64,000 nt of DNA from Porphyromonas sp. (GTDB lineage: Bacteria; Bacteroidota; Bacteroidia; Bacteroidales; Porphyromonadaceae): contig JALFBN010000003.1 in NCBI GenBank assembly GCA_022772085.1, forward strand, positions 124,001 to 188,000, written 5' to 3'. The translations under genes and the position numbers were made by a program. This document shows positions 43,947 through 48,054 of this stretch, piece after piece. Under the pieces are notes generated by a model. It was not told the origin of the DNA, did no database searches, and saw only the letters and a list, made by a program, of their open reading frames with translations. Position 1 is the first letter of the stretch. Each line of letters begins with the position of its first letter.

Positions 43947-45335
43947 TTATTGACCGGAAAACAGAATGCGAAAGGCTTCTTCAACGCCACTACAAGGGTG
44001 AACCCGAATCCCGTTTTTCCTCATTTGCATAACACCCGGCATATTACTTTTGGGAATTACAATATCTCGAAATCCGATGCGCTCAGCTTCAGCAATACGT
44101 TGCTCAATACGTTGAATCGCTCGGATTTCGCCCGACAATCCCACCTCCCCTGCGATACAAAATGCGGAGGGAATGGCTCTATCCAAGCCCGAAGACAAGA
44201 CGGCAGCAAGTACGGCTAAGTCCACAGCAGGATCGTTGATATGAATGCCTCCGGCAATATTCAGAAAAACATCTTGTTTGATCAATTTGAATCCGGCACG
44301 TTTTTCGAGTACTGCAAGTAACATATTGAGACGCCTGAGATCAAATCCGGTGGCACTTCTTTGAGGATTAGCATAGATGGCACTGCTCACCAAGGCTTGG
44401 GTCTCTATCAGTAGCGGCCTCACCCCCTCCATAGCAACGGCTACGGCTCTGCCACTCAAGCCCTCCATGTTTTTAGAGGTGAGGTGCTCTGAGGGATTCT
44501 CGACCCCCAAAAGCCCCGAACTTCGCATTTCGTAAATACCGAGTTCACTAGTACTGCCAAAGCGGTTTTTACTCGCTCGTAATATGCGATATAGAAAGTG
44601 TTTGTCTCCCTCGAACTGGAGGACCGTATCTACCGTGTGCTCCAATACTTTAGGTCCTGCGATAGACCCCTCTTTGGTAATGTGCCCGATCACAATGACA
44701 GAGACGCCTTGTGTTTTGGCATATTGCAACAAGATATTAGCACTCTCTCGGATTTGCGAAGGAGAGCCCGGGCTACTCTCCGAAAGGGATGTCGCAACGG
44801 TCTGAATGGAATCAATCACCAGCAAATCAGGTTTTACCTGCTGAGCCGTCTCCAAAATAGCCTCTATGGAGGTGGAACAATAGATAAGACACTCACTATC
44901 TTTTCCTCCCAACCGCTCCGCTCTCATCTTAAGTTGTTGCTCACTCTCCTCACCCGAGACATAGAGAGTGCGCAATGTGCTAAGACGAATAACCGTTTGC
45001 AGTATCAGCGTTGATTTGCCAATCCCGGGTTCTCCTCCCAAAAGTGTAAAGGAACCGCGAACCAAACCTCCACCTAATACGCGATTGAATTCGCCATCTT
45101 TTAGATCCCAACGAGCTTCCCCCTTGGCCTCTATTTGAGAAAGGGGTAAGGGCTTTTGCCCTACTCGCCCCCCTGCAATGCGATCAACAACAAGATTTCC
45201 TTTGGAGGACGTTGAGGTAATTTGAATCTCCTTTACAGTATTCCACTGCCTGCAATTCGTACACTGTCCCTGCCATTTAGAATAGACAGCCCCACACTCT
45301 GCACACACAAAAGAGGTCTTCTCACGCATGGACAT
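43947..45335 (-). CDS. radA: DNA repair protein RadA
   Basis: A 462-residue RecA-related branch-migration protein. The zinc finger is FVCAECGAVYSKWQGQCTNC, Walker A LGGEPGIGKSTLILQ, the RadA-specific KNRFG motif is in SKNRFGSTSELG, and the C-terminal Lon-like domain carries VSSAIYANPQRSATGFD and AGEVGLSGEIRAIQR. Start and length are normal. It follows the amidinotransferase gene by 12 nt. Confidence 0.96.
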   Translation of the reverse strand: MSMREKTSFVCAECGAVYSKWQGQCTNCRQWNTVKEIQITSTSSKGNLVVDRIAGGRVGQKPLPLSQIEAKGEARWDLKDGEFNRVLGGGLVRGSFTLLGGEPGIGKSTLILQTVIRLSTLRTLYVSGEESEQQLKMRAERLGGKDSECLIYCSTSIEAILETAQQVKPDLLVIDSIQTVATSLSESSPGSPSQIRESANILLQYAKTQGVSVIVIGHITKEGSIAGPKVLEHTVDTVLQFEGDKHFLYRILRASKNRFGSTSELGIYEMRSSGLLGVENPSEHLTSKNMEGLSGRAVAVAMEGVRPLLIETQALVSSAIYANPQRSATGFDLRRLNMLLAVLEKRAGFKLIKQDVFLNIAGGIHINDPAVDLAVLAAVLSSGLDRAIPSAFCIAGEVGLSGEIRAIQRIEQRIAEAERIGFRDIVIPKSNMPGVMQMRKNGIRVHPCSGVEEAFRILFSGQ

Positions 45336-45347
45336 CCATCATGCAAA

Positions 45348-46274
45348 TTAGGCACGTACAATCGGACAAGTCGAACAGCGAAGCAATCCTCCCTCCTTAG
45401 ATATTTCGTAGTAGGGAACAGTCTCCACTGTCATACCCCATTCATTGACTAAGTGGTGATTCAAACGAGTAAAGCGCTCTTCTGAGATAATCACATCTGG
45501 TGCGAGAGAAAATAGGTTAGTTGAGAGGTGCATGGCCTCCTCCTGGGTCACAGCGAATAGATTTTCCTTTCCAAAAATCTCCTCTATCAGTCTAAAGTCT
45601 TCTTCACGAGCGAATCCAGCGGGATAGACGACAGCTTTCCCCTCCCCGACGGGTTGAAATGTACAATCCAAATGTAGGATAGACCGATAGGGGTCGGTAT
45701 CATGCTTCTTGAGAGGGAGTGGTACAATCTTTTTGTTTGGGAACTGGCGTGTAAAGAAATCGATCCCCGCACGATTGGTTCGCGCCGTTTTGTAAAGATC
45801 AAATTCTCCATCTTGGCACGTTCCTATGAATAGATAGTCATTATACAACATTACATCCCCTCCCTCTGCATGGATATCTTGGGGCATCTTGACTAGATGA
45901 TTGGGGTCTATACGATCAAAAATGGGCGAAAAAGCCTCCACTTCCCGCATACGATCTTCGATCATATTGGCAACAAAGAGGCGATCGTCTATGGTAAAGG
46001 CAACATCTCGTGCAAAGATCTGATTATAATCTTGGATCAGCCTTGGACGAAGTACCTCTACATTGTAACGCTGTAATATCTCAAGTAGAGCTGTCATTTC
46101 TACCTTTATGTCCTTTTCTTGAGGATAGACTCCACACTTCAAACTATGATAACTTGTTGCATCATAAGCTTCATCTAGCGATGGTGCTGCTCCAAGAGAA
46201 TCAGGCAAACCCAGCACTACTGTATGCAAAACGTTGGTCTCATTCGTTGCATGTGGAGTAAGTAAATCCTTCAT
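45348..46274 (-). CDS. Amidinotransferase/dimethylarginine dimethylaminohydrolase-like protein
   Basis: A 308-residue pentein-fold enzyme of the guanidino-modifying superfamily. Recognisable are FARDVAFTIDDRLFVANM, DIHAEGGDVMLYNDYLFIG (acidic substrate contacts), HLDCTFQPVG with the catalytic His and the C-terminal GGLLRCSTCPIVR with the nucleophilic Cys. Whether it acts on arginine, methylarginine or another guanidine cannot be told; the family also includes arginine deiminases. It precedes radA by 12 nt. Confidence 0.85.
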   Translation of the reverse strand: MKDLLTPHATNETNVLHTVVLGLPDSLGAAPSLDEAYDATSYHSLKCGVYPQEKDIKVEMTALLEILQRYNVEVLRPRLIQDYNQIFARDVAFTIDDRLFVANMIEDRMREVEAFSPIFDRIDPNHLVKMPQDIHAEGGDVMLYNDYLFIGTCQDGEFDLYKTARTNRAGIDFFTRQFPNKKIVPLPLKKHDTDPYRSILHLDCTFQPVGEGKAVVYPAGFAREEDFRLIEEIFGKENLFAVTQEEAMHLSTNLFSLAPDVIISEERFTRLNHHLVNEWGMTVETVPYYEISKEGGLLRCSTCPIVRA

Positions 46275-46301: not shown

Positions 46302-46363
46302 TTGATAAATAAAATTCCGCTTAGTCCTGATAAATCAACAGTTTATACTAGGGATTAAGCGGA
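46302..46363 (-). terminator. Terminator of the T9SS-tail gene
   Basis: TCCGCTTAgTCC and GGaTTAAGCGGA-type arms pair over 11-12 bp (one mismatch); on the minus strand ATTTTATTTATC follows. It separates the small gene from the amidinotransferase-radA unit. Confidence 0.7.
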
Positions 46364-46398: not shown

Positions 46399-46779
46399 TT
46401 ACAATTTAATCTTAAACGTTTTTCGGTGTCCCTCCCGGCTCACGACCTCCACGAGCAGTACCCCCGAAGGCAATTGATCACGACCAATCCGTAAAAGGGT
46501 TTCGCCCTGGGGAGTTATCCGAGACCATACGCGTCCGGTAATGTCGTAGACCATTACGGTCTGTATATAGCCTGCAGGTAATTCAATTACAAGATCCGAA
46601 GCGGTGCTAAAAACGCGCACAGAAGCCAATTCATCATCTATCGCCTCCACAACTAGGGGAGTCGACTCTCCCAGAATGGGCTCTTTTCCTTCGGCAGCAT
46701 GCATCATTGTACAAGAAGATATTGCGACAACAATCCCAACAATAGCACGATGGAAGAGAGAGATACGTTTTCTACTCAT
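46399..46779 (-). CDS. Small secreted protein consisting mainly of a T9SS type A sorting domain
   Basis: 126 residues from ATG 46779; the track start 46812 lies at the predicted transcription start. Residues 1-29 form a signal peptide (HRAIVGIVVAISSCTMMHAAEG). Only about 22 residues separate it from a complete T9SS-type C-terminal domain: VRVFSTASDLVIELPAG, VMVYDITGRV, LRIGRDQLPSGVLLVEVV and the final GHRKTFKIKL. There is no room for a cargo domain. It has its own promoter and terminator. Confidence 0.8.
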   Translation of the reverse strand: MSRKRISLFHRAIVGIVVAISSCTMMHAAEGKEPILGESTPLVVEAIDDELASVRVFSTASDLVIELPAGYIQTVMVYDITGRVWSRITPQGETLLRIGRDQLPSGVLLVEVVSREGHRKTFKIKL

Positions 46780-46818
46780 AATACACTTTAATGGGCTTTC
46801 TTGTTCTACCATTCCCTT

Positions 46819-46827
46819 GCAAATGTA
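46819..46827 (-). promoter_or_regulatory. -7 element of the T9SS-tail gene
   Basis: TACATTTGC on the minus strand, full match to TAnnTTTGC, predicted leader about 33 nt. Confidence 0.55.
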
Positions 46828-46937: not shown

Positions 46938-48054
46938 ATGATTACAATAGACCAACTGAACAATCTGTTGGAGCGCAAGGAAGCGCTGAGGGGGTATCTT
47001 TGACGTCGATAACAGACGTATCCAACTTGAAGAAGAAGAACTAATCACGCAGGCTCCGGACTTTTGGGAAGACAATAAAAGAGCCGAAGCTCAGATGCGT
47101 AAGGTCAAGGAGATCCGCCGTTGGATCGAAGCTTTTGAAGCCGTAGAATCTGCCGTAGAGGAGGTAAAGTTGAGTTTTGACTTTTACAAAGAGGGCGTGG
47201 CAGAAGAGGAGGAGGTAGACCAAACCTATCAGGCAGCGCTCACCCTGATCGAAGATGTAGAACTCCGCAATATGCTCCGTCGGGAGGAGGACAGACTCGG
47301 TGCCGTGCTCAAGGTAAATGCAGGAGCCGGTGGGACCGAAAGTCAAGACTGGGCCTCCATGTTGGTGCGGCTCTATCAACGTTGGGGCGAAAACCACGGC
47401 TATAAGGTCACCATTACCAACTGGCAAGATGGAGACGAGGCCGGGATCAAGACCGTAACCATGCAGATCGAAGGCGACTTGGCATACGGATTCCTCAAAA
47501 GCGAGAATGGGGTGCATCGCCTGGTGCGCGTATCGCCCTATAACGCTCAGGGGAAGCGGATGACTTCGTTCGCATCGGTCTTTGTCGTACCTCTGGTCGA
47601 TGACAGTATTGAGATCGCCGTAAATCCGGCCAATTTGTCTTGGGATACATTCCGCTCCAGTGGGGCAGGTGGACAAAATGTAAACAAGGTGGAGACGGGC
47701 GTCCGACTGCACTATCAGTTCAAAGATCCGGACACGGGAGAGGAGCGTGAGATCGTAATCGAAAATACCGAAAGCCGATCACAGCTGGACAATCGTGAGA
47801 ATGCCCTACGACTACTTCGCTCACAACTCTACGACATCGAGCTCGAGAAGAGGCGTGCAGCCCAAGCCGAAGTAGAGGCCGGAAAGAAAAAGATCGAATG
47901 GGGTTCGCAGATCCGAAGTTATGTGTTTGACGATAGACGGGTCAAGGATCACAGAACCAACTTCCAAACCTCCAATGTCAATGCCGTAATGGATGGCGAC
48001 ATCGATGATTTCATCAAAGCCTACCTTATGGAGTTTGGCGGAGAGTCGAAATGA
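46938..48054 (+). CDS. prfB: Peptide chain release factor 2 (programmed +1 frameshift)
   Basis: RF2 ends translation at UGA and UAA. The ORF track splits it: the first 21 codons (ATG 46938, MITIDQLNNLLERKEAL) end at an in-frame TGA (47001-47003), and the rest runs from 47002 in the +1 frame, 371 residues in total. The joint is AGGGGGTATCTTTGAC, the same as the classical E. coli site: internal Shine-Dalgarno, slippery CTT and TGA-C. GGQ is in SGAGGQNVNKVETG. The stop-codon reading motif is SPY instead of SPF. The gene is GC-richer than its surroundings. Confidence 0.96.
46991..47004 (+). promoter_or_regulatory. RF2 autoregulatory frameshift site
   Basis: AGGGGG-TAT-CTT-TGA-C. When RF2 is scarce the ribosome pauses at TGA, the Shine-Dalgarno-like AGGGGG pulls it and CTT slips +1 so that GAC is read next. 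The downstream sequence continues in frame with RF2 (DVDNRRIQLEEEEL), confirming it is not a sequencing error. Confidence 0.93.

Follow-up and report, generated by a model that had tools for sequence, protein, structure and literature searches.

The window, a stretch of 64,000 nucleotides from a Porphyromonas genome of 2.06 Mb, carries on its minus strand a short gene that starts with ATG at 46779, stops with TAA at 46399-46401 and encodes 126 residues. Translation from an alternative ATG in the same frame, at 46812, would yield 137 aa, but the start at 46779 is favoured because the P. endodontalis orthologue begins at the same position (MSK/MSR). The gene lies between the divergent prfB and an ADI-family gene, which is followed by a RadA-like gene. 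The features of the locus are as follows.

46820..46827, minus strand: -7 promoter box, TACATTTG, kept in all five orthologues
46399..46779, minus strand: protein consisting of a C-terminal domain (CTD) only, 126 aa (open reading frame and four orthologues of 118-131 aa)
46693..46779, minus strand: signal peptide, residues 1 to ~29 with an approximate cleavage site (hydropathy in all five orthologues)
46618..46692, minus strand: unconserved linker of ~25 residues, about residues 30-54 (low pLDDT, pN/pS)
46402..46617, minus strand: CTD, residues 55-126, a seven-stranded Ig-like beta-sandwich (AlphaFold, Foldseek, hhalign, pN/pS 0.15)
46531..46545, minus strand: DITGR, residues 79-83, invariant and exactly between strands 3 and 4 (alignment, AlphaFold)
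46402..46413, minus strand: C-terminal KIKL, residues 123-126, with K123 and L126 invariant (alignment)
46303..46363, minus strand: hairpin resembling a terminator (46316-46363), with an AT-rich tail; in the window its fold did not stand out from shuffled sequence
45348..46274, minus strand: ADI-family (PF02274) protein, 308 aa, the conserved downstream neighbour
43947..45335, minus strand: RadA-like protein, 462 aa, the conserved next gene

The open reading frame and the hydrophobic, Sec-like N-terminus found by hydropathy in all five orthologues agree with the initial annotation, which had described a 126-residue protein with a signal peptide. A lipobox-like ISSC stands at residues 20-23 of the window protein, within its signal peptide (window 46714-46722), but is not conserved in the orthologues; given this motif, the protein could be a lipoprotein in its own species only.

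A Bacteroidota-type -7 box (TAnnTTTG) was found 31-57 nt upstream of the start in all five orthologues, in support of the proposal that the gene has its own promoter. Such a box occurred in 4-11% of shuffled sequences per orthologue, with a product of 7e-7 when relatedness is ignored. The companion proposal of an own terminator held only in part. The window has a hairpin and an AT-rich tail, and clear terminators with hairpin and T-tract lie downstream of the gene in P. gingivicanis and P. circumdentaria, but the intergenic fold in the window was not significant against shuffles (z -0.95) and the hairpin was absent from the consensus scan. The gaps between the CTD gene and the ADI gene (63-184 nt) contain hairpins, and cotranscription of the two genes is therefore not assumed.

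The prfB gene (window 46938-48054, plus strand) has an in-frame TGA after CTT (cttTGAc near 46999-47004), with AGGGGG before it, which we take to be the classical programmed +1 frameshift of release factor 2.

A PorU sortase (967 bits) is encoded in the genome, as are about 30 CTD proteins besides the window protein. The genome gave 32 TIGR04183 matches, among which the window protein was the shortest frame, and the carrier genomes had 19-44 CTD matches each. No genomic link between T9SS genes and the window gene was found. Across the genus the TIGR04183 counts were split, with 13-45 matches in some Porphyromonas genomes and 1-5 in others, which suggests that T9SS cargo has been nearly lost in part of the genus.

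Fold and family of the CTD

For the structure prediction, an alignment of the five orthologues was supplied to AlphaFold. Exactly seven strands were predicted in residues 55-125, with a pLDDT of ~95, and the N-terminal part was disordered before residue ~50, with no folded domain ahead of residue ~53. The top PDB matches by Foldseek were T9SS CTDs, namely, 8gl8 and 8gl6 (E 2-3e-4) in the SprA-PorV translocon of F. johnsoniae; the RgpB CTD 7pq4 was also matched (E 1e-3), and small Ig-like Bacteroides proteins (DUF3244) ranked high as well. When the orthologue profile was compared with the PDB by sequence, the RemA CTD was the sole match (E 8e-4), and hhalign of the same profile against 19 CTDs from the own genome gave a probability of 95% (E 3.5e-8). 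The CTDs of RemA and RemZ bound to SprA-PorV (8gl6, 8gl8) are the closest solved folds. The DITG loop is common to RemA and the window protein, and the strand 6 tyrosine is absent from both, but the RemA and RemZ CTDs are the tails of large adhesins, unlike the window protein. RemZ, the top Foldseek match, was rejected as a precedent for a CTD-only protein because, as a homologue of RemA, itself a large adhesin, it matches in fold only.

The domain had been called a complete type A CTD. The seven-strand fold and the matches to T9SS CTDs uphold its identity as a CTD, but "complete type A" is too strong, since the window protein did not pass the cut-off of TIGR04183 (type A; 19.7 bits versus 23), PF18962 (12.8 versus 27) or the type C model NF033708 (20.4 versus 40). 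For the other orthologues, TIGR04183 scores of 22.2, 25.1 and 27.8 were obtained, so that two of the five orthologues pass 23 bits, and the KA00251 orthologue had no TIGR04183 match below E 0.01. Weak similarity to the type C sorting domain (NF033708, ChiA) was detected in all five orthologues, at 18.5-30.8 bits, with none reaching 40 bits.

The window CTD has the fold, strand order, glycine-containing loop between strands 3 and 4 (DITGR) and last-strand lysine (K123) of type A CTDs (TIGR04183, PF18962), and like them it stands at the C-terminal end of a Sec-exported protein. Type A CTDs normally end a passenger, however, whereas the window copy scores below the cut-offs and lacks both the PNP start and the strand 6 tyrosine. 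The G-x-Y at strand 6 was missing from all five orthologues, and the tyrosine was present in 27 of the 27 other CTDs read from the own genome. Its absence need not abolish handling by the T9SS, as RemA also lacks it. A T-x-S-[DE] motif is conserved in the orthologues where the PNP start normally stands. The loss of PNP was dropped as a distinguishing feature because a good part of the genome's other CTDs also lack it. By the curated models, the window protein is an outlying CTD, marginal as type A.

Orthologues, ancestry and selection

Relatives of the same size (118-131 aa) were found in four other genomes of the genus, those of P. endodontalis, P. gingivicanis, P. circumdentaria and "Bacteroidales bacterium KA00251", making five carriers with the own genome. 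A single-sequence search of the genome contigs gave no relatives, but they were found with an alignment as the query. The remaining 21 genus genomes, a few of which are incomplete assemblies, had no match. A longer version of the orthologue was not found in the 26 genus genomes, where the long matches were the tails of unrelated large proteins. Outside Porphyromonas no orthologue was found either, and the profile matched only the tails of longer proteins (frames of at least 282 aa). Short CTD frames from six non-Porphyromonas genomes were among the matches listed; the four that were read had no signal peptide, indicating that they are fragments or contig-end pieces.

In all carriers the gene is followed at a short distance by the ADI gene and radA, all on one strand. 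A tree of the ADI proteins placed the five carriers together in a single group (support 94/89), indicating that one gain followed by vertical inheritance is sufficient to explain the distribution. The longer orthologues with a cargo domain that the initial annotation had named as refuting its view did not turn up among the 26 genomes, and the five species carry the gene at equal length in the same place. The initial description of a secretion tail without cargo stands, and judged from these sequences the window gene has not been truncated. Its closest paralogue in the own genome was the CTD tail of a 963-aa repeat protein (L069:303-3191, G000:C2; 33% identity, E 1e-4), from which the CTD-only gene may derive.

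When P. gingivicanis was compared with P. circumdentaria, pN/pS of the CTD codons was 0.15 (95% bootstrap, 0.08-0.24), and 81% of the residues were identical. For the signal peptide and linker of the same pair, pN/pS was 0.97 (0.64-1.55) with 35% identity, and for the linker alone it was 1.05 with 24% identity. The contrast comes mainly from this one usable pair, the other pairs being mostly saturated at synonymous sites; pN of the CTD was nevertheless below that of the N-terminal part in 10 of 10 species pairs, in two of them only slightly. The DITGR loop and the C-terminal lysine strand were among the most conserved parts, and the signal peptide and linker look unconstrained. This contrast indicates that the conserved product is the CTD and not the peptide before it.

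Proposed export and possible function

In P. gingivalis, export requires the loop between strands 3 and 4 (FDMNGRR in RgpB, including G699) and the lysine-bearing strand at the C-terminus (motif C-t.) (PMC11285876). The DITGR of the window protein at residues 79-83 is the counterpart of the former and K123 in the last strand that of the latter, and both are invariant. Cryo-EM structures show CTDs held by SprA and the loops of PorV, with a near-invariant lysine in contact with PorV (PMC10994853). The conserved counterparts of the loop and lysine point to export by Sec and recognition by the T9SS. The signal peptide would direct the protein through the Sec system to the periplasm, where the CTD would fold and its loop and lysine-bearing last strand may then be recognized by the Sov(SprA)-PorV translocon. 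The protein would thus reach the surface with essentially no passenger. PorU usually cuts 67-88 residues from the end, and a cut at this site would leave roughly 9-30 residues of unconserved peptide in front. The product that matters would then be the folded CTD itself, as the selection contrast suggests. Its most likely, though speculative, mode of action would be to occupy PorV or the PorQUVZ attachment complex or to report on T9SS activity, the latter being a role proposed for PorA (PMC7712824).

In favor of a T9SS substrate are the seven-strand fold nearest to translocon-bound CTDs, the profile match to the CTDs of RemA and the own genome, the invariance of both P. gingivalis export elements, the difference in selection between the CTD and the N-terminal part, the presence of PorU and about 30 other CTD proteins in the genome, the 19-44 CTD matches in every carrier, and the confinement of the short orthologues to one locus and one clade. 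Against it are the scores below the cut-off for every CTD family, the missing strand 6 tyrosine and the lack of a genomic link to T9SS genes; by analogy, the studied small CTD proteins Fjoh_0547 and PorA, which reach the outside without the translocon (PMC7712824), also argue against it. It is probable that the window protein is handled by the T9SS and that selection acts on the CTD as the product. The complete reading, a dedicated CTD-only T9SS substrate that acts on the T9SS, is tentative, with a probability of about 0.38. Its strongest form takes up the regulator or competitor role of the initial annotation: in an oral Porphyromonas clade, a free CTD would be dedicated to regulating or competing with the clade's own T9SS, for instance through occupancy of PorV or of the PorU attachment complex, or through signalling of T9SS activity. 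Such a role is possible but doubtful. The suggestion that the protein is a shuttle subunit was not supported, since the known shuttles of the T9SS belong to the PorV and PorP/SprF kinds, which are outer-membrane barrels and not CTDs.

The alternative that survives best is that the CTD fold has been repurposed, giving a small periplasmic or surface Ig-like protein that has no T9SS role, is perhaps not exported by the T9SS and keeps its fold for another partner. The scores under the CTD cut-offs, the systematic loss of the tyrosine, a conserved motif of its own (T-x-S-[DE]) instead of the PNP start and the high rank of the DUF3244 proteins in Foldseek would all fit such a protein. However, its most conserved segments coincide with the two T9SS export segments (PMC11285876), and RemA, a true substrate, is likewise without the tyrosine. 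On balance, repurposing is unlikely.

Another possibility is that the protein bypasses the Sov translocon on its way to the surface or medium and acts there on the PorXY-SigP pathway, as a small sensor or as a ligand. In size and layout it resembles Fjoh_0547 of Flavobacterium johnsoniae (112 aa), likewise too small for a passenger domain, which according to the passage of PMC7712824 that cites it is secreted even in sprA and porV mutants, unlike the route proposed here. PorA (PGN_0123) of P. gingivalis, a small CTD protein from a Porphyromonas, as is the window protein, is found on the surface of T9SS mutants and was shown to act upstream of PorXY-SigP (PMC7712824). PorA (246 aa) has a FimH-like domain before its CTD, whereas the window protein has no folded domain before residue ~53. 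A Sov-independent route is rather unlikely. Fjoh_0547 was the only case found in the literature on cargo-less or orphan CTD proteins, and its existence means that such proteins have a precedent.

It is improbable that the protein is a minimal carrier from which PorU removes the CTD and joins the short linker peptide to A-LPS as the cargo; the layout fits PorU chemistry and the genome has PorU, but no part of the protein is less conserved than the linker (pN/pS 1.05 and 24% identity in the closest pair). Very improbable, and rejected here although initially considered, is the reading of the gene as a decaying remnant, left when a longer cargo gene was stripped of its passenger domain: the nearest paralogue, being the tail of the 963-aa protein, makes an ancient descent from a cargo tail plausible and indeed likely, but the gene is intact at one locus in five species with a conserved promoter box, no longer orthologue was seen in the 26 genomes, and the purifying selection on the CTD (pN/pS 0.15) is not that of a remnant.

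Two further families of small CTD proteins were observed in the genus. One, of about 145 aa, occurs in three other Porphyromonas genomes (L081:1663-2106, L082:1810-2253 and L083:1632-2087) and consists of a signal peptide, a "TLSFVYDASGNR" stub resembling a YD repeat, an acidic linker and a strong CTD; its genes lie just upstream of a larger secreted protein. The other is a 172-aa frame (MKKNKLLLLFGLLL...) in two carrier genomes (L094 and L095), with ~90 residues before the CTD.

Overall, the cargo-less tail of the initial annotation is real and not a remnant, and a T9SS role for it is plausible, while "complete type A" went too far and the shuttle found no support. The present analysis adds a CTD-only state that is conserved in a clade, with its own sequence signature and selection contrast. 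CTDs are usually seen as disposable address tags that are removed by PorU. In this case, the tag has been retained without cargo across several species, with selection guarding the tag and not the stretch that precedes it. The question of whether free CTDs have a job of their own thus becomes directly testable, and the window protein may serve as a natural minimal T9SS substrate for studies of binding and transport.
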